Source: Cenococcum geophilum 1.58
Taxonomy: Eukaryota; Ascomycota; Dothideomycetes; Gloniales; Gloniaceae
Assembly: GCA_001692895.1 (NCBI GenBank)
Contig: KV748213.1
Coordinates: forward strand, 744,001 to 808,000
Direction: 5' to 3'
Length of the DNA: 64,000 bases
Shown: positions 31,979-64,000 of the stretch, one piece after another
Layout of the letters: the number at the start of each line of letters is the position of its first letter
Numbering within the stretch: the stretch's first letter is position 1
Program-made: the position numbers and the translations under genes
Notes under the pieces: generated by a model
Databases searched by the model: none
The model's input: only the letters and a program-made list of their open reading frames with translations
Told to the model about the DNA's origin: nothing

Positions 31979-31984
31979 ATTTAA

Positions 31985-40985: not shown

Positions 40986-41141
40986 AGATTTAAACTACTC
41001 GTTAAGTGAAATCAAATACTACCAAATAGGTCAATTAGGCGCCAAATAGCTACAGTCGACGCCGCTGACGTCGTTAACGCATTTGGTGTTTTTAACGCGC
41101 AGCCTACGTATAGCCTACGCAGAGCCTACGCAACCCACGTA
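40986..41141. other. junction between LINE and giant element
   Basis: 156 bp of weakly RIPped DNA with several short catttggtg/caccaaat-type inverted motifs (near 41,022 and 41,079) and tandem cctacgYa units at 41,103-41,132. No gene. Confidence 0.4.
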
Positions 41142-41164
41142 CGTCAGGAAAAAATTTACCAGCA
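41142..41164 (+). repeat. left terminal inverted repeat of the giant element
   Basis: cgtcaggaaaaaatttacca followed by gca, identical to 30,494-30,516 and the complement of 32,236-32,258 apart from one C/T and an end base. Confidence 0.75.
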
Positions 41165-41234
41165 TTTTCGCAGCATTTGGCGGCATTTAGCGGCCAAATG
41201 CGCAATCCGCGCACTGCAACGTGTAGCGTATGGT

Positions 41235-41525
41235 ATCGACTCAGGTGCGGCATACTGCCGCATCTAATAACGCAGTGCAGTATACTGCCGTATCCAGTAA
41301 CGCGGTGCAAGTATACTACCGCATCTAATAACGTGGTGTAGTATTCTGCCGTATCTAATAACGCGGTGTAGTATTCTGCCGCATCTAATAATATAGTGCA
41401 GCATTCTGCCGCATCTAATAACGTGGTATAGTATACTGCCATATCTAGTAACGCGGTATAAGCATACTGCCGTATCTAATAACGCGGTATAGTATACTGC
41501 CATATCTAATAACGCGATATAGCTA
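41235..41525. repeat. 30-bp tandem repeats near the left end
   Basis: About nine units of ctaataacgcggtgtagtat plus tctgccgcat, with C/T and G/A variants. Equivalent to 30,590-30,680. The minus-strand open frames here are repeat artefacts. Transposase-binding subterminal sites are a plausible role (inference). Confidence 0.8.
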
Positions 41526-41990
41526 ATTGCGCATTTACAGCCACCTAAGTAAGTAGTGCCTTTATTCTATTAAGCTCTCTCTATACTTAATGCGTAATTA
41601 ATATATAATACCCCCCTTATATATTCTATATATCTTACTTACTTTAAGTAATAAATAAGCGTTGCTCTTCCCACGCACTTAATAGTATTTACTTAGTCTA
41701 CGCGGTTAATAGTATTTACCCGTTCTATATAATTAGTATACTTTACTTAGTTTATACAGTTAGTACCCTTTACTTATTCTACGCAGTTAGTACCCTTTAC
41801 TTATTTTACGTAGTTAGTATTCTCTACTTATTCTATATACCTAGTATATACTATATAAAGAATATATTTTAACCTAATAGTAATATAATATAACCTTAAT
41901 ACGCCTAATAACGCCCTTTAGTTAACCTACTATTTTAAGTTTAATATTTATATAAGTCCCGCCGTAATAGTAGTACCGTACTATTAAACC
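41526..41990. other. subterminal low-complexity region
   Basis: Degenerate repeats of ttagtaccctttacttattY about every 26-30 bp (41,690-41,850), no gene. Its start is homologous to 30,670-30,800. Confidence 0.5.
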
Positions 41991-41999
41991 CCTAATCGT

Positions 42000-44200
42000 C
42001 TTTATTCTTACCGTTATTCTTACTATTATTTTCCCCGTCTATCCTACTGCCTTCTCTACTCTTATCCTCTTTATTGCCGTTATTTTCCCTATCTATTCCG
42101 CTGCCTTCTTTACTCTTATCCTCTTTATTAGCAAATTCCAGTATTACTAATCTATCTCCACTTTATAGGCGGGCCTTTATATCCTCTAGTATAGCACTAT
42201 CTATAATATCTATAACCTTAGACTTGCCGGCGAAAGTACACTATAAGATACGGTAATTAATTCCTATTTCCTATTTATTATTACCTTAAATTTATTTAAG
42301 GCGCGCTTAAATAGCGTTAATGTTATAGTTATATAGCATTAAAATCGTCTTATTAGTATACTGCGAGAAGGAGACCTTATATATAATTTTAGGGTTTATT
42401 CTTTATAATAAATGCGCTAAGCTACTATTATCCTATTATATTATCTTTATTAGCCTATATATAACAATTAAAATAGCGTAATATTATAATATAGGAAACG
42501 GCGGTAAAGTACTATAGTATACAGCGAGTATTATAATATAATGTTATAATGCGATTAATATAATATTATATATTTACACTTACAGTATACGGTTATTAAG
42601 TAAACCTGTTATTATACTTAGGATCTAGTTCCTCTAGATCTTCTATAGTATTTTTAAATAGATTACTAATTGCCTGCTAAGTCTATAGTATCTTATCTCT
42701 AATTATATTCTATATCTTATTAACTTATTATAGAAGTAGCCTATATAGCCTTTTATTACGTTTAGGTTAGTAGCTCTTCTAAGTATTCTATAGTCGCTCC
42801 CAACTATTTATAATACGCTTTAGTAAGTATAATAAGAGGCTTCCTATAGATTTACCTATAATTATAGCGTTAGCTTTAAACTTATATTCCGCTTCTATAG
42901 TCCTTAAGAGTATATTAAATTACTACGTATATAAGCTATATCGTATTAGCTGTAATAGGTAAGAAGAGGTTAGTATTATTCTTATTAAGGGCGAGTGACC
43001 TTAGCCTAGTATTAAAGAATACACGCTTAATATAACGTGCGATAATTAGCGCCCTAAATCTTATCTCTCTATCCTAGCCTTAGTTAGTTAGGTATAGTAA
43101 AAGGTAGAGTACTAACCGGGCCACCGAGCGTAAAGTAGTTATCCTTAAGTAGTTCCGCTACTTCCTCTACTACGGCCTTAATATTTAGCTTAAGGCAGTT
43201 ATAGCTCCCGGTAATAGTATCGCGTACTATATTTATTATATAATACCAAAATACGCTAAGCTAGCCGTATAGCTGGAAAATTGGTTAGTATAGTGCTACT
43301 AAATCTAAGGACCGCGAACCTTGCGTGCCGCTGGCCCCAGTAATATACTTAATACTCTATTTATTGGGTTTTTATAACGGTCTATAATAGTAATCGCCTC
43401 TTTTTACGTCTGCTTTATTAGTGTGTTTAAACCGCTTATATTTATTTCTAGCTAAAAAAAGAGATAGAGCTCTTTAGGTATAGAGCCTATTATTACTTAT
43501 ATAATAAGACATATCTAAGTAATACTGTATATTATTATATTAACTAGGCTAAGTAGCTGCTTTATATATTATCTAAAGTTATCCTATAGCGGTTGTTTAT
43601 TTAAGTAATATATATATTTCTTTTAAGTGTAGGTTTTAGATATCTTACGGTCGCTTAGGGTTTATAGGCTTTTATCTAATAAGAATAAAACTATCCGTTA
43701 GGATAACGTTATTAAAATTAATAATAATAGGTTGTACTATAGCACATTAATAATAGCCTTGCCTTTTAATAGAGACAGTTATGGTATAGAGCCCGATATT
43801 ATCCCCTTTAAGATTTAGATTATCTTAGGAGCTACTACTTAACTTATAACATCTTTATTTACTTTTTTACAAAATAGGTAAAGAATAAGTATATTAGTTT
43901 AGTAGAACTATTTAGCTTTTATATACACTTTACTTCCCTAAAAGATACTAAATAGTCTAAAGTCTTATACCTAATATACTTTAAATAATAACTCGGTTAA
44001 CTTTTATAATATAAATTAGGCATTTTTTACTAAGTATATAAAAAGGAGCTTTAATAAACTTATAATAATAAGTTAGGAGGGCGGCCTAACTGTTTATTAG
44101 GCTTTATAACAGGGCGATTAGATTGCCTTACTATAGCATAGGGTCCTACTTTATATAATATTTTTTCTATACCATATAAAAGCCTAGTTCCTCGCGATAT
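42000..44200 (-). pseudogene. unrecognised coding relic(s) of the giant element
   Basis: Minus-strand stretches are readable: FYLFLARNKYKRFKHTNKAD then VKRGDYYYRPLQKPNKQSIK and YITGASGTQGSRSLDLVALY (43,240-43,460), LKLNIKAVVEEVAELLKDNY (43,130-43,190), and a hydrophilic C-terminal repeat DKSKEGSGIDRENNGNKEDK (42,030-42,120) after GKSKVIDIIDSAILEDIKAR. Several frames are involved, so there may be introns or more than one gene. No family recognised. Confidence 0.4.
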
Positions 44201-44399
44201 TTGCCTACTTTTAAGGTAGATAGTACGGTATATAGGATATAAAGGGTAGCTAGCGCGTAGAGGGCGATATATAGTAGTATTATATTCTAGTTTATTATAG
44301 TCGCGGCAATCTACCCCTTTATTACAATCTAGCGCCGCTAGTTATAACTTACCACTATTTTAGCTAAGTTATATTTCTTTACCGCCTAGTATAAGCCTA

Positions 44400-47300
44400 T
44401 TTCCTTATATATATATTAACCTATACCCTATTTATTCGCTTAAAATCTTTATTATATATAGTATTATATATATCCTAATTGCTATAGTTATTTATAAAGA
44501 AATAGTCTATAACGTTAATATCCGTTAGTATAAGTAAGATAGGCCTCGTGATATGGTTAATATTATATATTTAGAGGGCATCTAGCGTACGTTTCATCCT
44601 ACTGTTAGATAGCTTTATACTTTATACTCTAAGTATTTTAGTTCTTGCGTTAATCTTACTACTATTATAAACTTAAAGGGTCTCTACTAATACACTAGCG
44701 TATTTTAGGTATTTGCCCTTACTATCTAATCGCCTAGTATCTTAGATTGTAAGTAGTAAACAAAACCTCCCTACTTTATTGCTATAGAGGCTATTATTTA
44801 CCCGCTTATATTCTTATACTATTACAGCATTATAGCGGGGGGCTCTAATATTAGCCTATAACGGGGTATATTAAATTAATACCTTATTAAGCTTATTAGT
44901 ATTAGTAGCATTCTTCCTAAAGTAAATATAGCATATAACGCTATAATAGATACTTAAGGGCATCTTTAATACCCAATTATTATCGGCCTCTAGTTAGTTA
45001 ACGTCCTAGTTTATTTACCAGATTTCATTAATCTACTTACGGTATTCCCTTATAAAGGGGGCTAGTTTAGATATAAGGTCAGTAATCTCTATCCGGCACT
45101 ATACCTCCTTAACTATACGCTAAATAGATATATTAATTCTCTAGCCTTAAAGTATCTAAGTTATATAGTTATTAAAGTTCTATATATATAAGCGATGTAC
45201 ATATACATTAACTATAGGGCCTAGTTATATTATCTGTATTACGCTTATTAGGTCTACTATATCAATTATATTAGTTGACGCCTATAGCTTAAGTTTGTTT
45301 TAAAGCATAGTATTAAGATATATAGTGTTATATTATAGCATCTACTCTTTATAGTTATTCCGTTTGTTGGTCCTATAGTAGAATACCTTCTATAGCTTAT
45401 ATACTTGCTCTAAATACTTTATATCTATACCTCTAATTACTCCTAGTCGCTAGATACTCTCTAAATAGTAAGTAATAGTATATAGCTTAGGAATATTAAA
45501 GTATGGTAGTCCTACCTTACTTAGTTAAAACGGAAGAAATATATCCTTTATTTTATCCATTCTATAAATAGCTACTACTAGGTACTAAATAGTTAATTCA
45601 TTGTATAATATATATTAAGATAGTATAGTAAAGTTTATAAACGCCCGGATAAATAGCATAGCACCTTTATTCTATTTTAGTAAGGGTGCTATAGTAGGGA
45701 CTAATTATCGTAATAGAGATTTATACATCTTTTTTATCTATTAGCCAACATTTACCTAGCTATCCTATACTATTATATCGGTAAATTGTTCCACCTATGC
45801 GAAGCGGGTAGTAATAAGTATATTAATATTTAATATCTTTTAGCCGTAACTATCTGTACGCGGGATATCAAGGCCCTAATATTTTCCGGCCTATATTTCA
45901 CTTTATATAAGCCCCTTAATCTAGTATATAAGATATTTACTAGTAAGGCCTTTAAGCACCTAGTATAGAAAATTAGGCGCTATTATCTTATAGATATTAG
46001 ATAGATTATAGCCCTATATAAAGTTATAGAACGGCCAAATATAATCTAAGTTATCCTTCTTATTAGTATCGTAACCTTCCTACTATATTTATATTTGGTC
46101 TTTTATTAATTAGTATATATAGAACGGCTATAGTTGCTAAATAGCAGTTATTAAATCATGCCGTTCATTCGTATATATATAATAAGTTAAATATTTATAG
46201 CCACTTTTAATATCTATAAGCGTAACCTATTCTTTATAATTAGCCATAAATATAGCTAAAAGTAAAAAGCAGTATTAATCCTAGCTATCCGCGCATAGGA
46301 GATATACTCCTTCTTTACTAGCTTTCTCTAACGCTATAGGCATTATTAGCATAACTATACTAGTAGTAGGGTTATCGCTAAAATATACGTTTAAGGATAG
46401 CCGCGAGGGTCTTATATTGCACCGCTAGTTATATTATTTAGTTACTAGGTATATAAACCGGGAGGTATATAAGCAGTAATAGGGCTAGTTAATTTACGGA
46501 TTATTAAACGCGCAGTTTAATATTTCTAATTAAAATATAAAGTGGCCATGCTTTCTTGCCGCCGGTATATTATATTAATTAGGTTTTATTACTAGCTAAT
46601 ATAATTAGCACTACAGTTACGCCGAGCGGTAGCTACTCTTACATCTCCTACCACTAGTCTACTATATTAAGCTTATTATATATTCTTATTCCTACTAATA
46701 AGTACTACCTTACTAGTAAGAAAGTTATATCTCCTTAAAAAGGGCCATAACTAATAAGGAAGGACATAATTTCTAGAGCATTTCAGTAACGTACTAGTAG
46801 CTACTAGTCCCCTATGGTTATAATTATTTTAATCTACTATGGTTAATTACTCTTAGATTACATCTATTTTAAAAGTAGTTTTACTTTAATATTATTAGCA
46901 CTCTAGTAAGAAAAATAGTTAGTAAATACTCCCTAAAGCCTAATATCGTTAAACTACTCGTTAATAGCGCGGTTAAAAGTCCTATAGCTTACCCACTATA
47001 AGACCTATACGTATTCTGCCTTACTACCAAACGGATAAAATAGGGAAGGTATCTTATCTAGTACACTACTAATACGCTTAATACGCGGCATAATATCATA
47101 TACTACTGCAGTATTATCTATAGTTTATAAATTTCCTTAATTCCGTCCCAAAGGCTTTCCCACAGCACGGCTAGTGGCCTCTTTAAATATTTTAATCCAA
47201 AAGACGTCTATAGATATTCCAGTTAAAGTTTACCAATTAGTTTTAACTATCGCCAGGTTATATACCCTATTAAATATTACGGAATTATTATTATAGTGCA

Positions 47301-47650
47301 TATCCGCAGCCCCATTATTTAGCTTATTAATAATATTATCGCCTAAAGCTTATACAGGTGGCCACTTATTACCTTACTCTAATTCAGCCTTATAATTAGT
47401 TATATAATACCCTTTTAAGGTTTAATAGCATAATAGTGCATCGTCGTCTATATATTATATAAGTAGCTACTTATTATATTACTTTAGCTTAGCCCTATAA
47501 TAGGCTATCTAATACTCCTCTAAGCTTTAATAGCATAAGAGTGCATTATTATTTATCTCTTTAATATTAACGCCCTTATATCTACCCTTCTTCTATTTCT
47601 ATTATCTTAGATAATATTATTTATAATAGGTTAGACCGCCTATACTTTTT
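44400..47650 (-). pseudogene. Plavaka/KDZ-like transposase relic
   Basis: Minus-strand, TAA/TAG read through. N-terminal half: IDVFWIKIFKEATSRAVGKA, LDKIPSLFYPFGSKAEYVQV, LQWVSYRTFNRAINEQFNDI. Diagnostic block at about 46,510-46,610: LPLGVTVVLIILASNKTQLI then QYTGGKKAWPLYILIRNIKL, which follows the Plavaka pattern 'v.P.ilaSDKT.lt.fsG.k.awPvYltiGNi' with RIP-type changes (D to N, G to R). Then LALLLLIYLPVYIPS. Further on: RRSISPMRGQLGLILLFTFS, IFNLLYIYERHDLITAIQQL, and a leucine-rich LYxVLKGLTSKYL-type block (about 45,950). The catalytic residues cannot be assigned safely. It probably moved this element and the 1.77-kb derivative. Confidence 0.65.
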
Positions 47651-47843
47651 ACTTTAGTCCTATACTTTTTATATTACCGCTAGATAGAGCTTATTTATAA
47701 ATTGCCGCATTAAGCTATAATTTACTATAGTTTAGTTAGAAGGGAGCCGAAAATAATATCTATATAAAACCGTATATTTAAAGTAGTATTTATAGCTTAT
47801 ACTATATTATAAGCCAGTTAAGATAGGAGGAGTATAGTAAGAG

Positions 47844-49300
47844 CATGGTAATATCTGTAGACACTAACGCGCTAAATAGCGCAACCCGTTACATTTTATG
47901 CTAATTTATATTAAATCGCGTTACGTTAAGCTAGGAGACTCTACTTATTACTAATATCGCGCCGCCTTTCTATTATACTAAGTATAGAATTCTAAACACT
48001 ACTATTTCCTACTTAGGATACTAGACTATTTTTTATAATAGGACGCGATATATAATAGCGGTATACTATAAATACGGCGTAGTACAACTCTATAAGCGCT
48101 ATAGACCCGCAAAAAGATATACAGCTTATTACCGGCTTAGGCATTACTATAGAGAGACTTAATACTATTAAGCGGACTTTTAAGTAGGTTATTATTAAGG
48201 ACGGCATTTTATATATTTTATTTTATAAATAACTAAACAATTTGCTACGCAAGTAGGCAATCTAGAAAGTTATTTGTTAGGTAGTAGAATATAAGAAGGC
48301 ACTAGCGCTATAGGTATATAAGGCTATATAGAATATACTAGCCTATATATAGTTAAATATACACAAGAAGATAAAGGTGCTAGGGCGGCCTAGTATTAAC
48401 TATATAGTAGATATGGAAAGGGGGCATATAGCTGCCGCAAACTTATAGAGTTTATCCCAGCTTAACTATACGTAGAACTACGGCTATAATCTTAAATAAC
48501 TTATTATACTACTTTATAAGCGGAAACTAGATAATATAAACTTAGTCCTAAGTATAAACATAGCCTTAAGTCTAGTGTCGCTATTTAATACGGCTTAAGA
48601 CCTACGTATAGTTGAATATTAGCTACTAGTTAAGATGTTTTTAGAGGCCGGAGTAGATTATAACAAGGAGTAGATATAGGCCGCCTATATAAAAACTATA
48701 CCTATCTAAAACAATAGGGCCTTAAGGGCTGCTCTATTAAGGGCAGTTTATTATAGGGTAGGCTAAATTATATTTACAGCTATCTATAGAGATAGTATAC
48801 CGGTATCCGTTGTAATTATAATATATTACTAACGTTTATCTAGCCCTATCTCTAGTATAATATGTTTCACTAGGCGGGCTAAAAGGCATTAATTAATTAC
48901 AGCTAATCTAATCTACGTAAAGATAGTAACTTTAGTTAAGTTTACCTTATAGTAAGACCTCCTATTGTACTAAAAAGCCTTAAGATTATTACCTATATAT
49001 ATAATCTTAGGTTATCTAAATATAGTATAGCAAATTACCTTTACTATAGGCTTTTCTATTAGGGGCAACTATATAAATATTATATTTGTCCTATGTTTTA
49101 CTAGCTAGTAGCTAGTATAGTAGGATAAGTATTATTCTAAGGGCCTATAGTATTAGCGACAAGTTTCTTAAGATATAGTAACGGTATACTAATACTAGAA
49201 ATAGTATACCTAATATAAGCAGGAGAGGGCGTTAGGTTACATTGCCTTAGCGGCAGCTATAATAAGAAAAGGATTAGATCCTATTTAAGGTTATTATAGT
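47844..49300 (+). pseudogene. unrecognised coding relic, plus strand
   Basis: A frame from about 48,100 to 48,720 reads ITGLGITIERLNTIKRTFKQ, VIIKDGILYILFYKQLNNLL, VLGRPSINYIVDMERGHIAA, ANLQSLSQLNYTQNYGYNLK, QLIILLYKRKLDNINLVLSI, LVKMFLEAGVDYNKEQIQAA. Another piece at 48,800-49,200 has FTRRAKRHQLITANLIYVKI and FCLCFTSQQLV-like residues. Stops are TAA/TAG. An ATG at 47,844 begins a second readable frame, so introns or frameshifts are likely. I do not recognise it. It lies between the transposase and SF1 helicase relics. Confidence 0.4.
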
Positions 49301-49401
49301 TTAGTAAAAATAGAGGCGGCCTATACTATATAGAGAGTTATTAATAATAGTTGCGGTTATTAGTGAGATATCTAGACTATAATCTAACTAGTTAAGTATT
49401 T

Positions 49402-49798
49402 AGGGAATGTTTGGTTATAAGTTTAAATTAGAATAAGGGCTTTAGAATAGAGTTAATCTAAAGCTCTAATCTAATTCTAAGGTAACCATTTGGTTAAATT
49501 CTAGTTTAATTTAACTTTAGCTACAAATTTTTAATATTTTAAAAAACACGCTAAAAGTTACTAAAAAGTTGGTAACTTTACTATATACAGAATCTAAACT
49601 AAGGTCTTAGCATTAGTTTAAATTAGGAGCTTAAAGCTCTTTATTTAAACTCTAGATTAAATCTAAAGGCTTTAAATTATATATATTTATATAACCCGTA
49701 GAGCTATAGATACATATTAAATTGGGAAAGAACGCGTTCTTTCTACTAGACTTTTAGTTTAGATTTAAAAGTAATAAATTATAACTAAATAACCCCTT
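49402..49798. mobile_element. probable hAT-type MITE (about 397 bp)
   Basis: Imperfect inverted ends: agggaatgtttggttataag at 49,402 and, as complement of the other end, aggggttatttagttataat. Differences are mostly G/A. The aggg...TTTGGTTATAA style is common in hAT-like MITEs. No coding capacity, very AT-rich; no clear 8-bp duplication found. Confidence 0.5.
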
Positions 49799-50091
49799 AA
49801 AATCTGGATTACAGATTAGTATTAATTAACTACTAGCCTAAAAGGGATAAAAACTAGGATTACTAGGCTTTATAAATCGGGCTATCTTTACTATAATACG
49901 CTTATCTGTTTTAGAGATCTTATTTAGCTATAATATATAATATTATAATATGCCATATTTTACCTAATACTATAGCAAAATTGTAAATATTAAAGGCCTA
50001 TAGCTATTGCCGCTCTTAACTTCTATCTAGTATCCCTATTTAAGGGTCTTGCTACTAATAAAGTCTATAACATCTATCCTTACCACCCTCC

Positions 50092-53000
50092 TTATGTTCT
50101 AACACCACTAACATCCTCTCTATTATTGTTATCCTTGTTATTATCACTAGCACCGCCCCAGCCGTTATTATTAGCGCCCTCTCTATTAGCCTCATTCCAC
50201 GCTTTAGTATAATTACCAGTATTACTAATATTTATTACACCCGCGAAGTTAGGAATAGTAATATTAAAGTTAATATCCATACTATATAAAATAGGCGTAT
50301 AATTAGCTATACGCTAGCGGTAAATATACTATATAGTTTCATTAACGTTAAACAGGGTAATAAGTTACTAGAAGTGCTTTTTCCGCTTAAAATTCTTAAG
50401 GTTAATAAATACCTTATTATCCTTATACTACTTCTTAATTTTATAATACGCAGTATTTATAAAGGTCTTATTGCTAGTATAATAATTATAAACTACCTAG
50501 AGACTACTAATAATAATAAGGCCCGCTTATAGTCTAGTAATTATAAAAAGGTTTCTTACTGTATCCTAAATAAATTTTAGCGGACTAGCAACTATTATAT
50601 TATATACTAATAACTCCACCTAGCTGCCTTAGATGCCGTTAATGGTAAAGACCTTAATCTTACTAACTACTAGCGCAAATTCCCGCTACTTACTACCATC
50701 TTACTAGGCGTAGCACTATTCTTTAAGCGCATATAGCGCTGTGGAGTAGACAATAAGTTAGGCTATATATAGAACGGTAAGGCTAACCTCTAATAGCTTA
50801 AATTTAAAGTCTATTAGCGCTATAGCCACCTAAAATGCGCGTTAAGCGTGGACCAGGTTATACATTAATTAGCTAAGCTTATTTACCTATATAGTACCAT
50901 TAACGGCAAGAAAGGTAACAGGGTGGTCATAGCGCAGCATATCCTTAAAAAAGCTCGCCGCTAGCTTTAACTACTCTTAGTCCTTAATTATTAGGCTTAT
51001 CTAAAGCTGGCTATACGGCAGGATGGCATTTATAAGACATATAATATCTTTAATAAATTAATATTATAGCGAAAACTATACTATATCCGCACTAGCTGTA
51101 AGGAGACGCGTATAGAGGGAGATAGATTTCTAATAGTAGAACGGATTATTAAAATTAGGACTAAGGATTGGTTTTAGTTAGTATATATTACTAAGAAAAA
51201 CCTAAGGCATGGGGTCGCTAGCCTAGATTTATAGACCTCCTTAGATTAAATATGGTCTGCTCTAGGTGAACCTAATAAGATTACCTAGCTTAGATACCTT
51301 CCTGGCCTTATTATAGAAAACTATATATATAGCGCTAATAGAATATATATAAGTCTATAAGACCATATTAGGTATTATAAGAATAACATTAGCCTTCTTA
51401 GCTAGGTCTATAATAACTATATTAGCTATAAGTATTAATCCCATCTTATTATCTTACGTTATATTATTACTAAGCGCAAATCAGTATAAGTATTGGCAGA
51501 ATTTAGCGTATTTAGTTATATTAGGGTCTATAATAAAATATAGGTTTCTATTACTATTTAAAACACCTATAAGGTATAATAACTACTAACCTTTAGACAA
51601 ATCTATAACCTATAACTACTTATTAAAGCCAGTAGCATTACTAGCCTTAAATATACGGTAGAGTAGGAATACTATATTTAGTATAGATATATCCTTATTA
51701 ATTATAGCATAGTTATCCTATTCTTTAAAATGCTTAGGATAAGTATTAATACCTGCCGCTATTTACTATATAACGGCATCCTGCTTATAGGCCTTAGTTT
51801 CCGTTAAGTATATATAGCGGCGAAGGATAATAGGAAATTTAGCGGGATGGCCTTATACAATTAGTGCCTTATAGTCCTCTATAAGCGTATTATTAATTAT
51901 CTTAGCTAGTATATCTAGTTAGTAATTAAGCGGTAATAGGACCTAGATTTTAGTAGGATCCTATTAGGGTAACCTAAGTTAATACTAGTATTATACTAAA
52001 ACAGTTAGAAAGATTAATTTCCTAATACTACCGGGGCCTTATATTAGCAAAATACCGCCTATTATATATTTAAGCGCAGTATAGGCACCTATTTACTCTT
52101 TATTAAGTAGCGGTAAAACAGCCTTAAGGGCATTATTAACCAAGTTCTTCCTATACTTAGTAATATTATAGTTAAAGTAATTAATACGCGGGAGATCTAT
52201 AAAGTTATTAGATAGCACAATTTGGCGCTTAATATAGAAACTATTACCTCCTTACTATAGGTAGTATAGAGTATTAATCTCTTAAGAGATTCCAACCTTA
52301 GGGATACGCTCAGTTATAAGACATTTAATACCCTATGCCGTAATTAGGGCCTTACTTAGGTTACTAACTATTATAAAGTTGTTGCTGCTTAGGATATACT
52401 CCAGAGCAAATACGGGGTTTAGTATAAACTTATAACCTACCTATAGTTAAAAGACAAAAGTATAGTAGTTATAGCCGGAGCTAAAGGGAGTGGTATTAAT
52501 AATAACTCCTTTTTAACTAGCCTAGCTATCTATATTTTTACCTAAAAATAAGATATTAATGATAAAGTTAGTATAAAGGATAAGACCATTAACTATCTAG
52601 ATAGTAGTATAGTAGACTTAGTCTGCGCTACCTAAAAAGGTAATAAAATAAATAATAGTAGGTACCTAGGGGTTCTAATTAACGGCCTTAAGGCTCGCAA
52701 CTACGGCATAGAACTAGACCGTAAAATACTTAAGAACACTATTAAACTAATACCTTACGGGGATTTTATATAATAGTCGGTCCTCTACTAAAAGCTATAT
52801 ACTAAGCTAAATATTTATATTATAGTTCTTCTACTAGCAACCTAAAGGATTATTAACGCTCTGCTATTATAGGCTTATGTTTAGGCTTGCGATATAACTA
52901 TTAAGCCATTTAGTACCTAGTGTAAAGAAATAGACAACAACTATAGGACTATTTAATAGTATATCCTAAGCTTTATAGATTTACGGCGTAAATGGGCTAA

Positions 53001-53571
53001 AGTCCCTATTAATAAAGAAGTACTTACTAAGCAACATACGCGTACCTAGTGTAGGTTTATTAGAGGCGACAACGAACCTAATATAGTAAAGTTATAGGGT
53101 TATAGTATCTTGTAGGAGAATGCAAGTAAGATACTTAAGTATAGTTAGATATAATAGTTATTAAGTAACTAAAGAAGTAGCATTAGTAGTGTTAACCTTA
53201 ACATTGCTAGTAATATTAGCATCTATAAATTAGATAGACGCCATCTTATATAAACAATAAGTAGGCATTCCACTAGTCTTATAAGACACCTAGAATATAA
53301 TACTATATACTATAATATACTCTTTAATAATTTATATAACAAACTAAACTATAAAATAGTTATTATTTAGAAGCTAGAGTACATTTAAAGGTTCGGCTAT
53401 TACGGAATCACTATCCTCTATATAGGTATCTAGATTATCTACTAGGCTATCCGCTACCGGATAGAAGCCGGCTATATTAAGAGGTTTAGGCAATGAAGAG
53501 GTAGCAGCTATACTTAAAGCGGCAGCACTTAGTGCATCTATCTTACCTAGAGCGGTTATAGCATCTATCAC
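50092..53571 (-). pseudogene. SF1 (UPF1-like) helicase relic
   Basis: Minus-strand. The best part runs from about 52,250 down to the stop at 50,092. Before the Walker A: NALKAVLPLLNKEQIGAYTA. Walker A at 52,015-52,045: GGILLIQGPGSIRKLIFLTV, i.e. GPGGTGKS altered only by G-to-A and C-to-T. Further: LPLNYQLDILAKIINNTLIE, AKKANVIPITPNMVLQTYIY, YQFIKDIICLINAILPYSQL, a motif V/VI-like block FTINGIQGSQVELLVYNIIV then FIQDTVRNLFIITRLQAGLI, matching UPF1/SEN1 'D..QG.q.d.vi' and 'RlNVA.TRA..gl'. The C-terminal 62 residues (from 50,280) are still open and end in Asn/Gly-rich, acidic tail. A possible N-terminal start at 53,571 (MIDAITALGKIDALSAAALS) is in poorer context. Presumed nucleic-acid helicase. 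Confidence 0.65.
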
Positions 53572-53579
53572 CCAAATTA

Positions 53580-56080
53580 AAGTAGGTCTACTTATATAAT
53601 TATTAATATTATACCCTATAACTCTATAGTTCTTATATACCTAACTATAAAAGACAGTTTAATGGTTCAGAAAGCTATAGTTTAGGCAAGTCTACTTCTT
53701 CTTACCTAATAGCTAGGAACAGTCTCGCTTTCTATAGCCTATAGCACTATATTAGTTATATATTACACTAAGATAATTACTTTTAAGATAACCGGCTTCC
53801 TTATAATTATTATATATAAGGTTAAGGCAGTTAGCTTTAAGATAACCAGCCTTATTATAGCCGTAATAAAGTTAAGAGGCTTTCTTAAGAGGATAATTGG
53901 CGCGTATATAGCCGGTAAACAGACAGAAATAGCATTTTAAAGCGTTATTAGCCAAAAGGTATAGACTACTAAGCTCTAAAAGAAGAGGCTTATTAAGCGT
54001 AGGGCCCTTACTATTACCTTACAAGACACCAAAGCCCATAGTCGCCATAGTTAAGGCAATCTTAAAAACTATAACACCCTTAGCAAACTTTTTATAGTCA
54101 CAGACGTAGTTAATATCGCGAGTTATAAAATAATTAGTAGGTAGGTCTATTTTAGTAGCAGGCTATATTAAGCAGTAGTTTATATAAACGCATTAGTAAA
54201 CATAGACCCTCTATTATATAGCTAAGGCCAAAAATAAGGTAGCTGACTTACTATATTATAAGGCTCTATAGCTTAAATAGATCTACAAAGGCACTAGTTA
54301 TAAAGGTAAATGCTAGTAGGGTAGGAGTAAGGGTAGGTAATTAGTAGAGTTAGGTTAACTAGTAAAGGTAAGGAAATAAGGCGCGCCCTAATAAAATTAT
54401 ATAAGTAAGGCCTTAGCGGCAAAGTATACGGTTATATACTCTATAGGTCAAACGCGTATAAGGGTAAATCTATAGTAACAAAACCAACCTATAAAGGAAG
54501 ACGCGGTATAGTATAAGTTATAGGGACTACCCTACCTAGCCTATCTCTTAATATAGGCCAGGTAATAGTCCAGTACTATTAAGCTCTTATAGTTTATAAT
54601 ATAAGCATATAAATATATAGAAGGGTAAGGAAAAAAAGAAGCGAGTAGTAAAGTAAAAGCACTTTACTATAGGCAGGCTAATTACGTTATAGGTAAACGG
54701 AAACTTAAACACTGTAATCTATTAAAAATATTACTAATAAGCACAGCCTATCACTGCTAGAAAGTATAAGTCTTTTCCTCCCTTAATTAGTAAGAGAAAA
54801 GGCATTATTAACTAAATAATCTCTTACTAGAGTACTAAGTGGGAAACAGGATATTATAAAACTATATATAGTTCTAAACAGATCTTAAATAAAGATATTA
54901 AATTTAAAAGACTCTAACGTAATAAATACTATAGTAGAATACTAACCTCTTATATAACACTAAATAGATAAATAGCGAGATAAGTTAACGTTGCTAAGCG
55001 GCTGGATGCTAGTATATATAACATATCTACTATCCTAAAATGCCCTAAAATGCCGCAAAATACTGCAAAATACTATTAATTATATAAACTTATAATATAA
55101 GATACAAAACCTTCTACTACCTTTTACGGTAGATATATGTTTAAATAAGCACTAGATATTTATATACAGACATAAATCCTATATACTAGATAATTATTAT
55201 TCCGGATAGACTTATCTAGTAGGCCCTTAAGTACTATATAGTATAATAATAATACTAGCAATTATAAAGTAAGTATAATATATCGCTATCTACTAGAAGT
55301 ACTACCTATTATATACTAAGCACTTCGCAGCAATAAAGTCCGCAGGTATAGATATAGGCTAGCCCTCTAACTCTAGTAGCGTGCATATCCACCAACTTTA
55401 TATAACAATAAGAAATATAGTAACGCCTATAATAAGTGCAATACGTTACTATCTACTAGAAATACTACCTATTGTATAGCAAATACTTCGCAGTAATAAA
55501 GCCCGCATATATAGACGCAGGCTAGCCCTTTAACTCTAGCGGCGCGCATATATACCAACTCCATATAATAATAAGAAATATAGTAACGCCCACAACCTCC
55601 TATAGTCTACTATACTATAATAACTAATTACCCCTTCGCAGGCACTTAATAAATCGCTTGTATTAAAAACTATAAGAGTTTAGCGGTATTAAACCACCAC
55701 CTAGCCCTAAATAGGCTAGGTAGAGTAGTCCCTATAAGTTATATAATTATACCCTTATTTAACTGCACAGTACTAAGTCTAACCATATTTACCCTAACTA
55801 GTAGCAGCAAACTATAGCTAATTTTACCTCTATGCGGGCACATACGGGCAATTACAAGATCTACCTCTTTACCTCTTCTTAATTAACTTTACTTACCCTA
55901 CCTTCTATCTCTCCTATAACTAACCTCCAACTATATTTAACACTAAAGTTATACTAGTATAGCGCTAGCCAGCTACCATATAAAGCCCTCCTACTTTAAT
56001 AGTTACCTTCTACTTAATATATGCCGCAATATTACATATACCTAACTAAATAAGTAACTTAATAATAACGCAACTATAGG
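53580..56080. other. region between the two helicase relics; no gene assigned
   Basis: RIPped throughout. A minus-strand frame is readable between about 53,700 and 54,750 but is hydrophobic and resembles nothing. Two structures stand out: a 163-bp direct duplication (55,286-55,599) and a pair of about 35-bp inverted segments (near 54,512-54,550 and 55,712-55,752, core ggctaggtagRgtagtccct). Since the flanking helicase genes diverge, the shared promoter could be here. Confidence 0.4.
55286..55599. repeat. 163-bp tandem duplication
   Basis: ctatctactagaaRtactac starts at 55,286 and again at 55,449; both copies go on through cttcgcagYaataaagYccg and aataagaaatatagtaacgc. Differences are mainly C/T and G/A. 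Confidence 0.75.
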
Positions 56081-56089
56081 TAAAGCCGG

Positions 56090-59000
56090 ATGCGTGGTAT
56101 AAGGCGAACCTAAAGCCGACTAAAGATATAGATATTGCCTAAGGCTTTAAAATAAGCATTAAAAACTATAATAGACTAAAAGAGAAGGTTAAAAATATTG
56201 CGATTAAAGTTAAGCCTAAGCATATAACATATCACGGCAACTCTACAATAATAAAAAAAGGGCATATTAAGGAGTTTTATAAGTAACTCCTGTAATTTAC
56301 TAATACTTTACTGGATTAGAAACTACAGGTAATCCTAAAAATTATAGAAAGTACTTATTTTAATCGCGTAAAAAGGGTACTAAGTACCTCTAAAAGTGGG
56401 TATGCTCTATATAAATATATATTACCCCTAAAGACCAAAGCATAAGACGAGATAACGCCACCTTAGCTGCTGCATATAATATAGCCTATAGACGTTACTA
56501 TAACCTCACTATATAGTATCCCTTCGCCTCAGCCAGTAACCCTAGTGGCGAGCAACGTAATTAATATAAGAGATATTAAGATTAAAATTTAATCTATAGG
56601 CTTAATAGGTAGGTTAATAGTTAGGGTAGTCTAAGTCTTATATCTAATAAGCGAAAACCTATATATAGCTTTAGGTAAGCTATAGGAGGAACTATAAGCC
56701 TATATAGAGCTTAACATTAACAGTCCGCCTAAAAAGAACATCTATATATCGCTGTGGAGATACAAAAACCTTACAATACGGTTAAAGGGCACACTTATTA
56801 TAGCTCTTAGCGAAATAGCGCAAAATAGTACAAAGGAGGCCGTGCTTATAGCATTACTCTTACCTCCTAGCTTAAACTTCTAAGTCGCTACCACTAATAA
56901 TATACCGCTAGCTATTAAATCTAAGGCGCCTAGACGCGATGGATATAGCGTAAAAGATAGCCAGCAAGTCCCAATACCGCGTAAGGCCAGCGGTAAGAGT
57001 AAACTAAGAGAAGGCAAGAAGCAGAGTTATTTAGGATTAGCAGTATATAGCTCTAATAAAGATAGTAAGGGCGAGCCTATTAGATATAAGAAATTGGATA
57101 ATAGTAAAATTAAATTAGGCAAATATAATAAGTAGCCTTAACTAAAATCGGTAATAAGTGCCCTAGCGGAGAATAATAAAAGCGAGCCGGCCGCGCCTAG
57201 GAAGTTAAATAGTTATAAGGCCAACCTAAATAAAAGTAGAAAACGCCCTTAAGCAGAATTAGTAGCAGGCACTCTTATAAAAAACAGCAATAACGAGCTG
57301 GTTATACGCAGAAGGTAATTAGTAAAGGGAAAACGTAACCTATCTACCTATAAGCCCATATTAGCGAGTAACAGCGGTACTAAAGAAATTACCATAGATA
57401 ACGGTAAATTGCCGCAATTTATTACTAAACCTAAAGGTATACACTAGCCTAACGATATAATAGACGACCCTACTACTATATCACTAACCGTTAATATCCC
57501 TTAAAATATTACCGTAGAGGACAGTAAATTACCACAACATGCCAGTAGATATAATAATTAGTTCCTATATTACACTAACTCTAAAGATATAAAAAGTGGA
57601 GACAAAGATAAGGATTTAGTTAATAATAGCAACCAAAACAAGGATTTAGTTAATAATAATAACTAAGACGTAGACGTAAAGGAAGAACTTAACTAGCAAA
57701 CTTTCTTAGCCCAGCTCTATAAGGCTAGGAAGGATAACCTAAATAGCGCACTAGCGTATATAATAGAGGCGGATCTTCTACTTACTCTAAAGTATTTCCC
57801 ACTCGTCTTATTAAAAGTACTTTCTAAAACCGCCCTAATCGAACTCCCTAATTAGGGCCTCGTATTAGGCTTTAAATTCAGCCTATACCAAGTAGTATAT
57901 ATTACTTAGGCATTTAAGTAAAAGAGGATAATTAAAAAAAGCAGCATCTATATAAACAAACCCGGCGCGGGCAAGACTATATAAATAATTACTTAATAGC
58001 TAATAAACTACTTTTATTATTAGAACGTAATAAAGGTTTAAGAGGCCTAAGCTACTAGGGATATAACCCGCCACCTACCTAAGATATATCCGCTAGATTT
58101 AAAATGCCTATAGATAGCAAAGCAGCCGATTATATGCTACTGCGAAGATAACTCTAAAAAGCTATACCCTATAGACCTACAGCGAGGCTACCTAGTCATT
58201 TTTACGCCGACCCTAGGCCTGCCAGGATTCCTAAAGGACGCGAGTATAATATTATAAGACGGCGCAATTATAAAGCGCCCTAACCTGCCCTAGATTACAA
58301 TTCTCGCCCCTAGCTATAATAAAGTTAAGATATTTAATAAACTAAAAAAGGACAAATAGCCGCAAATCCGTAAGGCTCTTAAGTAGACTAATAAAAAATA
58401 ATAAAAGAACAACAATAACATATATCTAGTTAGCAAGGCTCTCCTATTATACCCATAGGGTAAAGCCAAGTTTAAGAATAATTATAGCCCTACCCCTAAT
58501 GCGACGGAACTATTAGCGCTAAAATACTTAACCTAATTCCTTCTAATTACTACGCGAAATTGTATTACCACACGACTAATATATAGGTTTATCGCTATAT
58601 AAACCAATATATAGAAACACCTAAATGGCTAATCCCCTAGAACGTATCAGAAATCAAAGAGTGTAATATAGGTTAGGCGTATTCTCTAAGATAAATGCTA
58701 CCTAGACGCAACCAGTAAAGTTTTAATATCGTTTATTAAGGATATAGTTAAGGAGTACCGCATTATATATAATCGCAGCCCTACTATATAGGGTACGTCT
58801 AGCACACCTAATAACGGAAACCTAATATAACCAATATGGTTTATTATAGCAGGATTAAAAAGGCTAGAGTGGGAAGAAGCTAATAAGCTAAAGGGAACAG
58901 AGTTTAAAGTACTACTTAAGCTTAAAGAAAAAAACATCTAGCTAAAGAAGAAGGAATTTAACCGTCTCTATAAGGATATAAAGACTAACCTAGCCAGAGT

Positions 59001-60072
59001 AATAGCAGATAGGAAATTCGGCAAACTAGCTGCATTTTTCCGTATAGTTATTCCAACGTTTTAGATATATAGAGGGGAGTTAACACTCTAGTTTAACCAG
59101 TAAAAGCTTATCCTAAAGAACAGCTATCTTAAATTAGTTATATTATAGGCCGACCCTAATAATACTAAGGCGGCTATAATTATAGCTATAAAGGACCAAG
59201 TAAGGATAGAGCAAAGGCACTAATATAAGGAACTTCTGGCTATATAGGAGGAAGATAGTAGCGATCTAAATACTAAACCTAAGATACCGAAACTCACCTA
59301 AGCCAAGTTATACACTAACGCGAAAATAGCAGTAAGCATAGCCTAGGTTGTCCAATACTAGGACTAGTATACCCCTATTATAATTAAGTCTAATAAATCC
59401 AATAAGTCCGATAATAAACGCCTAAAAACTTAAAGTTACACACTTAAGGACCTAATTATCGCTAAGTAAACTACTAACCCGCTTAGTAAGGAGTTCACCA
59501 ATATACTTAACCGCTATTTTTAACAGAATGCAAAGTTCTTTTAAGCTAAAAAAATCTGTAATTACGTTTATATCAAAAAATAAACGGATAGTTCAGCGTG
59601 TAAGATTATTATTACCACTCGCTTACCTCTTATACTAGCTTATTAGTTTAATAGGCTATATAAAGAATATAGTAAAGATAAGGTGCTCTACTATGTAGCC
59701 GGCATATCTAATATTAAAAAGGCCAAGGCTAGGCAAACCTTTAACACTAATAACTCTAAGTAGATCCTACTTTACACCTTCGCATTAATTAGGCTGTCCA
59801 TTAACCTATAGCGCGTAAATTACACTATTATAGTTAAGCTAAGCCATAAGCTCTTAGAGGTAAAGTAACTATTCGCTTAGATAGATTAACGAGGATAAAC
59901 TAAACCTATTTACTATAGTACTATTATAGCTAATTAGAAGTCGAGTATCGAGTAGAGAATATTAAAGTTAACTAAATTTACGTCGTTACTGCATAAGTCG
60001 GTATATAAGGAGAAGGCTAATTTAAGCTTAAAAGCAGGCTAAGGTAAGAAGGAAGACACTAAGACTATTTAA
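56090..60072 (+). pseudogene. SNF2-like helicase/ATPase relic, about 1,300 codons
   Basis: One frame can be followed from about 56,090 to 60,072, interrupted almost only by TAA/TAG. N-terminal 550 codons: hydrophilic (ISIKNYNRLKEKVKNIAIKV, KPKHITYHGNSTIIKKGHIK), then a charged linker with DKDKDLVNNSNQNKDLVNNN. ATPase: YLYINKPGAGKTIQ-type Walker A (SSIYINKPGAGKTIQIITQQ, about 57,940), GYLVIFTPTLGLPGFLKD, ITILAPSYNKVKIFNKLKK. Helicase C: KDKVLYYVAGISNIKKAKAR, LYTFALIRLSINLQRVNYTI, VKLSHKLLEVKQLFAQIDQR then GQTKPIYYSTIIANQKSSIE, the SNF2 'N(L)..a..vi...p.wn...e.Qa..R..RiGQ.k.v.v' pattern. The DEAH box was not identified with confidence. It presumably remodelled nucleoprotein complexes. An inserted LTR element follows 160 bp downstream. 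Confidence 0.75.
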
Positions 60073-60230
60073 TGCTAGTAATAATTATAAGAGTATAATA
60101 TAACTATAAATAGTTTTAAACACTATATATAGCCGCTATATGGCGAAACCTATTATAATTATATAGTGGCGTATATATAGGCCAAGGGACGTGTCTTCTA
60201 GTAACTTATAGGTAGTAGCGTAGCGTATAT

Positions 60231-60442
60231 TATAAGGTGAGGATATGGATAGGGAGTCCAATGATAGAACAATGGGTATATTGTATAGACAGAGACGAAT
60301 CCTTAAGGGAGAAGGAGGAGTCTGAGGTGCGAGGTAAGGGGTTTCCATAGGTACGTGTAGCGCACGTGCCTTACAGGCAAGTCGCCTGCGGGTCGCCTGT
60401 ACCTCGCAGCTATATAACTATATGCTCAGGTTTTACCTAACA
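60231..60442 (-). repeat. LTR (212 bp), 3' copy of a minus-strand element
   Basis: Minus-strand start TGTTAGGTAAAACC at 60,442, end CCTTATA at 60,231 (the other copy CCTTACA). Same length as 63,119-63,330. A polypurine tract (complement of taccccccccctttaaaaag, 60,443-60,465) abuts it, fixing the orientation. Flanked on the left by tatat (60,226-60,230). Confidence 0.9.
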
Positions 60443-60465
60443 ATACCCCCCCCTTTAAAAAGGGT

Positions 60466-61900
60466 CGTCCCCGATCCTTTACATACTTAGGCCTTAATAA
60501 AACCCCATAAAAAACCTTAATAAGGAAAAATTAAAAAGGGAAAGAGTGTCCTAATTTTGCGCACGAAAAGATAGGTATATACTTTACCGGTAAGTTATAG
60601 GTTATTTGTATATAGCTAGGCGTATAGTAGTAAGGCAGTATGCCCGTTAAATCCACCGCTAACCCTATACTTTGGCCTTATACTATACCTACGTAGTATA
60701 TAGAGATTCCGCCAAGTTCTGCCAAATTCTGCTAAATTCTGCCAAATTCTAGATGCGTACTTGTATAAGCAGGTTACTAATACCTTATAGGTAAGTCGTA
60801 GGTTATTCGCATGCAGCCAGATTTATAGACGGTAAGGCTATATACCTATTAAATCCGCCGCTAACCCTACTTTAGCCTTACGCTATACCGGCATAGCGCC
60901 GTGTATACTTTGTGGGTAGGTTATAGGTTATTTGCATACAGCCAGACGTATAGTAGTAGGGCAGTATACCCATTAAATCCACCGCCGACTTTATACTTTA
61001 GCCTTACGTTATCTGCGTAGCACATGCGTAGTATATACGTAGTTACATCGGGTCGCGATGCGCCTGCGCAAGGTATACGTTTAGGGGTATGCGGTATCCA
61101 AGTCTTCTGCCTATCTAACGTCGGGTCGCGATACACCTGCGCACGATATGCGTTTAGGGGTATACGGTATCTAAGTCTGATATATAAATCGTCGGTATAG
61201 GTTACTACCAGCAGGTTATTAGCAGGTCGTAGACCCTAGTTAAAGGACCCCAGTCACGGACGGATCTGTCCTTAGAGATATAAGTTATTAGTATAGGTTA
61301 CTACTAGTAGGTTACTAGCGGGTCAAAGGACCCTAGTTAAAGGACCCCAGTTATAGGCGGTATCTGTTACCAGTAGGGACTTACCCCTAAGTTAGCTAAT
61401 TACGCGTAAAGCGTAAGGCGTCCCTTTTACTCTACGGATAAAATCAACTAGTAACTTATAGGGTCGTCGGGTCGCGATGCGCCTGCGTAAGGTATGCGCT
61501 TAAGGGTATACGGTATCCAAGCTTTCTTTTCTCTAACGTTGGGTCGCGATATACCTGCGCACGATGTGCGTTTAGGGTATACGGTATCCAAGTCTTCTTC
61601 CTATTTAACGTTGGGTTGCGATGCGCCTATATAAGGTATACATTTAGGGTATACGTTATCCAAGTCTTTGTAGAGTAATGTATACATTATTAGCATAGGT
61701 TACTACTAGTAGGTTACTAGCAGGTTATAGACCCCGGTTAAAGGACTCCGGTTATAGACGGGCCTATTATATAATATATACATATAGTTATTGGTGTAGG
61801 TTATTACTAGTAGGTCACTAGCGGGTTAAAGGACCCTAGTTAAAGGACCCCGGTTATAGACGGACCTACTACCTGTCGCCTAATAGCTAAGACTTATCTG
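60466..61900. repeat. non-coding internal repeats of the gag-only element
   Basis: Several copies of gggtcgcgatgcgcctgcgc with aaggtatRcgtttaggggta and cggtatccaagtcttct (61,047-61,680, five copies at about 78-bp or longer spacing), and of ggttactactagtaggttac plus aggaccccRgttatagacgg (61,195-61,870). CpG-rich compared with the flanks. Confidence 0.75.
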
Positions 61901-63059
61901 CAATGGCTTACCGCTAGTATTCTTTATAGTTACTACCTACGTTCCTCTAGTAAGTCGTAGGCGTAGCGCCGGCGTCTAAGGGGTCCTTAGGGCTATCTAG
62001 CTGTTAAGTAGTCTCCCTAGAAGTTTACTTAGGAAAGCCTCGCCTTTCTTAGGTTCTGTCTTCTAAACCTAACCCTATAGAGCTTACGCTATAACCGCGC
62101 TTTAAGCGCGAGGATCTGCTACTAACCATATAATTTTTCGCAAGCTTTATGGTGTTAAGTAATTGTTCTATATAGCGGACTTTAGTAAAGAGGTCCTTAG
62201 TAGTTCTCACCCGTGCAGTAAAGTTCTGGCGGAAGAGCTCTACTTATAGGTAGGTTAGGAGATATAAGAACTAAAAGTCTACCTGCTAATTAGGATTAAT
62301 AAAGGGGGTATATAATAAGAGGTCCTCTAAGCTACGTATACGGGCTAAGAAGGTGTTAAACTTCTAGTTCTTCTTTATCACAGTTATATAGTACGCAATA
62401 GCATTATTAAAGCGTCTTACTATAGGGTCCTTAATCTGGTCTTAGACCATAGTCTTAAATTTGTCCCATAGTAAAGGACCTTTATTTTTGGCGCCTAGCC
62501 GGTAATACACCAGTTAAGTAATTGTCTTTACTTTTATAAGACCTTCGATGGCCTAACGCGTACGTTACTTATAGTTATAGTTAGCGTCGTTAACCTTAAA
62601 TTAGTTCTTAACTGCGGCGATCTACCGGTTAAACTTCTGTTAAGTAGTGCCACTAATATTAGGCGGTAACTTCTTAACCAGGGCGTTAAGATTCGTTTGG
62701 CGTATACGCTCGCTATGTAACTTGTATTCTTCGCTTAAGAGACAATAACAACGGGAGGGCTTTATTAAGTCAACGATGCTCCGTAAGTTGGCTATTTTCT
62801 TAGCTAGCTTATCTAGCTCCTTTAGGTTAGTAGTATTTAGTAGGACGCTAGTAACCTTACTAAGCTCCTATTAAGCCTAGGTATATAAGTTAAACTAGTC
62901 TCCAGCGTTTATAGATGTCTAATTGTCTTAAGATTCGGAAGGTAGCCCAGATGTTACTAGTGTAGAGGTTTCGTCTGCACTAGATCCTAAGGCGTTCTGC
63001 CGTTGTATCGCGGGCGTATTACCGTTAAGTGCAGGGGTCGATCTTGTCTTTGGAGGCAT
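61900..63059 (-). pseudogene. gag: gag-like relic of the LTR element
   Basis: ATG at 63,059, MPPKTRSTPALNGNTPAIQR, QNALGSSADETSTLVTSG, then (with TAA/TAG read through) LNTTNLKELDKLAKKIANLR, SIVDLIKPSRCYCLLSEEYK, LNALVKKLPPNISGTTQQKF, and a basic C-terminus near 62,120 (SSRSSRLKRGYSV). Size and basic tail fit an LTR-retrotransposon gag; no CCHC motif was seen. Which superfamily is uncertain. Confidence 0.55.
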
Positions 63060-63118
63060 TATAGATTGTAAGAAAATTAAACCGGCTATCCTCCCAAAGG
63101 GATTAGTAAGGATTTAAA

Positions 63119-63330
63119 TGTAAGGTAAGAATATGGATAGGGAGTCTAATAATAGAACAATGGGTATATTGTATAGACAGAGACGAATCCTTAAGGGAGA
63201 AGGAGGAGTCTAAGGTGCGAGGTAAGGGGTTTCCATAGGCACGTGCAGCGCACGTGCCTCACAGGCGAGTCGCCTACGGGTCGCCTGTACCTCGCAGCTA
63301 TATAACTATATGCTTAGGTTTTACCTAACA
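63119..63330 (-). repeat. LTR (212 bp), 5' copy
   Basis: Direct repeat of 60,231-60,442 with mostly C/T and G/A differences. Starts (minus) at 63,330 with TGTTAGG and ends TTACA at 63,119. Right-hand flank tatat duplicates the left flank. Confidence 0.9.
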
Positions 63331-63335
63331 TATAT

Positions 63336-63545
63336 AGTAAACTCAGTTAACCCAGTTAACCAAAATATTTCTAGTATTATTATTTCTAAAAGAGCATTAA
63401 GCTGCAGCTTACAGCACTTTTATTATTAAGGCGGCGTTTAGCCGCAAATTACAGCATTATTATTAGCAGTATAGTATATAGCCGCAAAATGCAACTAAAT
63501 GCGGCTAAATACCGAAATTACTTAATTAGCATAAACCTAATTTAA
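63336..63545. other. subterminal region of the giant element
   Basis: Continues after the inserted LTR element. Contains dispersed tagccgcaaaWtRca-type motifs (63,430-63,520), reminiscent of the gcggcattt units of the subterminal repeats. No gene. Confidence 0.4.
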
Positions 63546-63570
63546 GATACTAGTAAATTTTTTTATAACG
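63546..63570 (-). repeat. RIPped right terminal repeat (candidate)
   Basis: gatactagtaaattttttta followed by taacg resembles gatgctggtaaattttttcc plus taacg at 32,235-32,259, differing mainly by C/T and G/A changes. Confidence 0.5.
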
Positions 63571-63589
63571 CCGCCCTGCCCCCTATACT

Positions 63590-63795
63590 TACTAATATTA
63601 ATAAAATATATATAAAATATTAAATATTAAATTTTTATTAATAATATTAAATTTATATAAATTATACATTTTTATATGCTTAGTAATATTAATAAAGCGT
63701 ATATAAAATATTAAATTTATAAAAATTATACATTTATATATACTTAGTAATATTAATAAAGTGTATATAAAATATAAAAATTATAAAAATTATAC
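63590..63795. repeat. AT-rich tandem repeats, about 64-bp units
   Basis: Three to four imperfect units containing cttagtaatattaataaagY and gtatataaaatattaaattt. No coding signal. Confidence 0.7.
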
Positions 63796-63805
63796 TTTTA
63801 TATAT

Positions 63806-64000
63806 GCTTAGTAATCTTATAGTTAGCACTTAGTAGCTAAATACTAACACTTAATTATAAATGCNGCATTTAGCAGCTAAATGCTAACACTTAATTCTAA
63901 ATACGGCATTTAGCAGCTAAATGCTAATACTTAATTCTAAATACGGCATCTAGCAGCTAAATGCTAACACTTGATTCTAAATGCGGCATTTAGCAGCTAA
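63806..64000. repeat. 40-bp tandem repeats running off the window
   Basis: Units gcatttagcagctaaatgct plus aacacttaattctaaatgcg, at least four copies, related to 31,985-32,215. One undetermined base at 63,865. Confidence 0.85.

Follow-up and report, generated by a model that had tools for sequence, protein, structure and literature searches.

A probable Plavaka-group transposon carrying UPF1-like and SNF2-like helicase genes, decayed by repeat-induced point mutation, in Cenococcum geophilum

Two subgroups of Plavaka DNA transposons are described, PlavakaA with target site duplications (TSDs) of 2 bp and termini TGT..ACA, and PlavakaB with TSDs of 2-3 bp and termini CATCA..TGATG, some members of which carry TET/JBP; Kojima 2025 relates Plavaka to EnSpm/CACTA and no longer to KDZ (PMC12730594). 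Helicases are encoded by other DNA transposons, among them the Inton/Enton transposons with an SNF2 helicase (PMC3627910) and the AcademH and KolobokH helicases in fungi (PMC10799480). How large DNA transposons get excised and moved through silenced chromatin is poorly understood. Here we describe an element in a 64,000-nucleotide stretch of the Cenococcum geophilum 1.58 genome (the window; contig KV748213.1, here C38, positions 744001-808000), which was compared with the genome as a whole (177.2 Mb in 162 contigs). The element is very probably a copy, killed by repeat-induced point mutation (RIP), of a ~19.8-kb transposon of the Plavaka group (CACTA/EnSpm-related) that carries a UPF1-like and an SNF2-like gene beside its transposase.

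The element is a terminal inverted repeat (TIR) transposon reaching from 41142 to 64122 (window coordinates, as are all positions given below without a contig), its right TIR ending at C38:808122, 122 bp past the window end. The 26-bp left TIR (41142-41167, plus strand) is of the same type as the TIRs of a short relative at 30494-32259, as an initial annotation made from the letters of the window had recognized, and it is preceded by a TSD copy TA (41140-41141), the right TA copy lying beyond the window at C38:808123-808124. That annotation had asked whether the terminal repeats belong to one insertion, and the TA on both sides, next to 41142 and 64122, shows that they do. Its right end at 63570 was misplaced, however: the TIR-like site there (63550-63570) lies within the element, 552 bp short of the true terminus, and within a complete copy on contig C30 too; it may be a former right end left behind by outward growth of the element. 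Subterminal repeats are present at both ends, those on the left, noted earlier near 41.1 kb, being tandem with a period of ~30 bp (41245-41522), and those on the right having a period of 40 bp (63786-64000) and continuing beyond the window end. The C30 copy (196536-216347, 19,812 bp) ends in the perfect 26-bp TIR CGTCAGGAAAAAATTTACCAGCATTT and aligns with window positions 41140-60230 (89%) and 63345-63966 (94%), and the undisturbed unit is about 19.8 kb long. The termini are CGTCA..TGACG.

A 24-bp core of the TIR occurs exactly 203 times in the genome (102 forward and 101 reverse), and its reversed control not at all. Pairing within the first 100 of the 203 places gave 24 pairs less than 50 kb apart, and in 19 of the 20 pairs picked by eye for examination the flanks carry matching 2-bp TSDs (TA in 14, TT in two, and AA, AC and CT in one each). 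Matching 2-bp duplications are also found for the window element, the short relative and the C30 copy. The insertion at 30494-32259, identified already in the initial annotation, has the TSD AA and paralogous empty sites: its joined flanks with a single AA correspond to a site on C48 over 282/282 bases (88%), and to further sites on C46 (298/298, 79%) and C10 (297 vs 298, 75%), and the 2-bp duplication is thereby confirmed. The C30 flanks are single copy in a genome search, so no paralogous empty site is available for a full-length copy. Three TIR pairs with matching 2-bp TSDs, C1:2673465-2680298 (6.8 kb), C4:4519587-4529964 (10.4 kb) and C20:421299-435707 (14.4 kb), have none of the Plavaka, UPF1 and SNF2 blocks described below among the matches listed.

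The minus-strand Plavaka-type block proposed earlier corresponds to a decayed PF18759 transposase domain in two exon parts separated by an intron-like gap of ~120 bp. The first part (46456-46794, minus strand) matches at E 5.4e-13 with stops read as X and 1.2e-18 with stops read as Q/R. The second (45930-46334, minus strand) is below the cut-off in the window (E 0.0022, 17.7 bits), and in the C30 copy both parts are above it (E 6.4e-20 and 2.4e-14, the latter 53.7 bits). Of the C(2)C and H(3-4)H motifs that precede the last catalytic E in Plavaka, the positions of a C..C vary between C and Y from copy to copy (with C30 counted twice), and the location of H(3-4)H is uncertain. The element probably also encodes a DUF6532 protein, to judge from a decayed minus-strand match at 42834-43085, which scores 31.4 bits (cut-off 24) when a 333-aa frame is read with stops as Q/R; longer frames bring it under the cut-off, to 21.7 bits with stops read as X and 22.7 bits in the C30 copy. 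Further Plavaka copies lie elsewhere in the genome. In many of them the domain is undivided, in one frame, and they are therefore probably another group; the best, C30:1712561-1713541, contains no more than 5 stops, and 41 of 43 split-domain Plavaka matches are not near the block loci listed.

The element resembles Plavaka in its PF18759 transposase, its 2-bp TSDs and the occurrence of accessory genes in the group, and differs from it in a cargo of SNF2-like, UPF1-like and probable DUF6532 genes rather than TET/JBP, and in its length of ~20 kb (PMC12730594). The initial annotation had grouped it as Plavaka/KDZ; the Plavaka part of that assignment stands, and the placement with KDZ does not, given the relation of Plavaka to EnSpm/CACTA (PMC12730594). 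TSDs are 8 bp in Zisupton and KDZ1 and 4-8 bp in KDZ2 and KDZ3 (PMC12730594, PMC12810828), and KDZ is rejected here on a TSD of 2 bp vs 4-8 bp. The large size, the helicases and the cargo would suit a Helitron, Starship, KDZ or virus-like element, but with TIRs, 2-bp TSDs and a PF18759 transposase we regard any of these as extremely improbable. Helitrons have an HUH Rep protein and neither TIRs nor TSDs, and are rejected on the 26-bp TIR and 2-bp TSD. HUH/Rep, DUF3435, KDZ, capsid and polymerase domains were unreported in the scanned frames, a weak negative given the RIP damage: neither helicase was picked up by these scans either, and the plus strand of 44.8-51 kb lay outside them.

The gene for the UPF1-like superfamily 1 (SF1) helicase lies at 50083-54150 on the minus strand, as a single frame of ~1355 codons with 90 stops and N-terminal CCHC zinc knuckles, and accounts for the GPG..K SF1 helicase read earlier on that strand. 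AAA_12 is above the cut-off in an 840-aa read-through of the window (1.3e-6) and in a copy on C55 (5.2e-11). A profile of three copies was scored against 8000 candidates out of 5.8 billion sequences and retrieved a single protein, P0006 (1355 aa), which is 63% identical to the window over 1320 codons without gaps (stops as Q/R); its residues 1-1355 match C38:794083-798150 (window 54150-50083) in one frame through the 90 stops. P0006 contains five zf-CCHC stretches (2.2e-21) and AAA_12 (8.7e-20), with AAA_11 below its cut-off (1.5e-4), and its closest PDB relatives are UPF1 (6.7e-13) and Nam7 (2.1e-9). With AAA_12 and the SF1 motifs read directly in its sequence, the motif names being those in general use, P0006 belongs with the UPF1-like SF1 helicases. 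Relatives of P0006 or of P0002, a more distant protein, were not found among viral contigs. Between this gene and the divergent SNF2-like gene is a region (54151-56064) with two 163-bp direct repeats at 55265-55590.

The SNF2-like ATPase gene lies at 56065-60039 on the plus strand, in one frame of ~1325 codons with 72 stops, and corresponds to the 1,300-codon SNF2-like frame of the initial annotation. Twelve genomic copies align in this frame, and counting of fixed stops supports it; the minus-strand genes are not definable in that way. In the RIPed copies, with Pfam reported at E up to 1, Helicase_C is weak in 7/9 (best 4.5e-4) and SNF2_N is seen in 1/9 (0.0016). A profile of the copies retrieved the protein P0001 (1328 aa; 8000 candidates scored), 66% identical over 1311 columns with stops as Q/R, in which both domains are above their cut-offs: SNF2_N at 27.2 bits vs 24.9, covering profile positions 1-53 only, and Helicase_C at 27.3 vs 23.5. 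The motifs DEPGAGKT, DECH, SGTP and RIDRRGQTEP are read directly in P0001, which on SNF2_N, Helicase_C and motifs I, II, III, V and VI, by the customary SNF2 naming, is a member of the SNF2 ATPases. The profile search suggested in the initial annotation finds PF18759 and AAA_12 in the window itself and SNF2_N and Helicase_C above their cut-offs in P0001, and leaves AAA_11 below its own. A search with P0001 gave four more distant relatives at 51, 48, 29 and 26% identity, and those at 48-51% retain the core SNF2 motifs that fall within them. Against PDB, a profile of the five SNF2 proteins matched Rad54-like (1.3e-11) and Rad5 (1.4e-9) structures as well as the LSH and DDM1 remodelers; no match came from PDB searches with profiles of the RIPed copies or, at 1e-3, with P0001 alone. 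A distant SNF2 relative, P0005 (1500 aa), has a sub-threshold match to Ulp1 peptidase (C48) N-terminal to the helicase.

The decay of the element has the marks of RIP. Over 41142-60226 the indices are 1.66 for TA/AT and 0.41 for (CA+TG)/(AC+GT), similar to those of window positions 1-10000 (1.76 and 0.43). At two-allele sites of the SNF2 copies (17-20 copies per site, each allele in at least two copies) there are 1024 transitions vs 10 transversions, an excess consistent with near-identical copies having arisen in a burst and later undergone RIP. Of the 469 codons at which the window and P0001 disagree, 423 (90%) are explained by C-to-T or G-to-A changes on the window side and 11 by changes the other way; for P0006 the figures are 517/556 (93%) and 21; for the more distant P0002 as a baseline, RIP-type changes explain 261/837 (31%). 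P0001 and P0006 are therefore near-undamaged versions of the element's genes, and near-intact versions of both predicted helicase genes exist in public sequence data. Inside the element, Pfam reports Plavaka and DUF6532 alone when stops are read as X, and a long minus-strand frame with stops as Q/R again yielded just Plavaka; the helicases surfaced by way of aligned copies and near-intact relatives, where scans of RIPed read-through had missed them.

The three genes are linked in many places in the genome. Searches with three DNA blocks of 3-4 kb gave at least 40, at least 40 and at least 38 loci, and with protein searches then added, at least 40 UPF1, at least 43 SNF2 and at least 40 Plavaka-block loci were compared. 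Around the 40 UPF1 loci listed, SNF2 is upstream and divergent in 27, Plavaka is downstream on the same strand in 26, and both are so placed in 21, with wrong-arrangement controls giving 0, 0, 1 and 0; at least one partner accompanies 36 of the 43 SNF2 loci listed. The centre-to-centre distance is 6.2-6.7 kb in 14 of the 27 UPF1-SNF2 pairs and 5.0-5.2 kb in 16 of the 26 UPF1-Plavaka pairs. In seven copies, those in the window and on C30, C8, C10, C13, C22 and C26, the Plavaka, UPF1-like and SNF2-like blocks all lie between TIRs with matching TSDs (Plavaka being partial in C8, and SNF2 in C22), and the helicases therefore belong to the mobile unit, as the initial annotation had proposed, and have moved with the Plavaka unit in this genome. 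Fungal repeats are often nested, and the window contains a genuine case (60231-63330), so that the blocks could in principle be separate or nested insertions lying together, or an assembly artefact. With the same order, orientation and spacing on many contigs we consider this very improbable, and assembly by chance or nesting is refuted by the seven copies with all three blocks inside matching TSDs; chance is likewise excluded by the 203 TIR cores vs 0, the roughly 40 genomic copies listed per block, and the TSDs in 19 of 20 pairs.

Several observations weigh against the identification of the element as a helicase-bearing Plavaka transposon. The termini CGTCA..TGACG fit neither Plavaka subgroup exactly, being one base off PlavakaB (PMC12730594), and one of the 20 TIR pairs, C29:946128-956538, is without a matching duplication. 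Neither partner is found at 8 of the 40 UPF1 loci listed, and none at 7 of the 43 SNF2 loci. An intact copy of the element was not seen, and stops are present in every genomic match of the UPF1 and SNF2 genes. AAA_12 was unreported by Pfam in a 3,329-aa frame (stops as Q/R) that contains the residues of the 840-aa read-through, and the genome-wide AAA_12 search, with 23 matches, 21 of them without stops and host-like, did not list the element copies. The roles of the two motors, considered below, are guesses.

Neither Plavaka elements nor helicases in DNA transposons of other groups (Academ, Kolobok, Inton/Enton) are new; what would be new is this gene set. Inton/Enton, Academ/AcademH and KolobokH are alike in being DNA transposons that encode an SNF2 or other helicase beside the transposase, and unlike in that they are other transposon groups by name and that the available portions of their descriptions mention no UPF1-like partner, a separation drawn from descriptions and not from comparison of SNF2 proteins (PMC3627910, PMC10799480). 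The giant Plavaka repeats of Amoebidium differ in their cargo, to which many genes for tyrosine recombinases belong, and neither helicase nor SNF2 occurs in the main text (PMC11244446). The main text of Kojima 2025 has no mention of SNF2 and one of helicase, for Helitron (PMC12730594), and Plavaka and KDZ elements are described without the Plavaka, UPF1 and SNF2 set in the accessible parts of two further sources (PMC8290104, PMC12810828). The set was not found in the open-access literature searched, to the extent that its texts were available.

In the Plavaka family a DDE transposase excises the element at its TIRs and reinserts it, in this case mostly at TA. The two motors would be accessory proteins of the element, the SNF2 ATPase most likely opening or remodelling chromatin, or translocating on double-stranded DNA, at the element ends or target, and the UPF1-like helicase most likely acting on single strands, either of DNA (strand exchange, gap repair) or of element RNA. 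Short TIR elements such as 30494-32259 may have moved in trans, and a burst of near-identical copies would afterwards have been mutated by RIP. A direct role of the motors in transposition has a little less than an even chance. A stronger form, which we put forward only tentatively as somewhat unlikely, is a two-motor transposon whose Plavaka transposase depends on, or is much more active with, an SNF2 dsDNA translocase and a zinc-knuckle UPF1-like helicase of the element, the two allowing 20 kb to be moved out of and into silenced chromatin; the helicase-bearing elements would then be a separate Plavaka lineage across fungi.

The helicases might instead be counter-defence cargo, the SNF2 protein undoing silencing by heterochromatin or methylation, in parallel with the TET/JBP genes of other Plavaka and KDZ elements, and the UPF1-like protein protecting element RNA. 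TET/JBP in PlavakaB and other fungal transposons is proposed to aid escape from silencing (PMC12730594), LSH and DDM1 are among the PDB structures matched by the SNF2 profile, behind Rad54-like and Rad5 at the top, and CCHC knuckles like those of P0006 occur also in the RNA-binding proteins Lin-28 and AIR2 (PDB matches). The element is heavily RIPed all the same, and sequence cannot tell such cargo from a direct transposition role; we regard counter-defence as a real possibility, at a little over one chance in three. A passenger status of the helicases, as host genes that one lineage of elements took up without gaining from them, would accord with the stop-free state of 21 of the 23 AAA_12 matches, the host having AAA_12 genes of its own, and with the presence of other Plavaka copies in the genome. 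We find a passenger role improbable: it is made less likely by helicase motifs that are intact over the full length of P0001 and P0006 and conserved in the SNF2 relatives at 48-51%, and at least seven insertions retain both genes.

Some large transposons, the element suggests, supply motors of their own, whether for moving or for evading host silencing. By encoding an SF1 helicase and a motor of the chromatin type along with its transposase, it makes the contribution of motors to transposition directly testable, and it extends the accessory-gene theme (TET/JBP, helicases) of fungal transposons. In fungal genomes rich in repeats, predicted SNF2 and UPF1 genes may belong to transposons and not to the host.

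The short relative at 30494-32259 adjoins a decayed DDE_1 match (with HTH_Tnp_Tc5 below the cut-off) in multi-copy sequence, and its interior has GC-rich repeats and mixed RIP indices of 1.29 and 1.06. The nested element at 60231-63330 is a 3.1-kb long terminal repeat (LTR) element with 212-bp LTRs and the TSD TATAT at 60226-60230 and 63331-63335. Its interior gave no Pfam match with X at stops, and its RIP indices are likewise high. The C30 copy has the site uninterrupted, and the LTR element is not part of the transposon.

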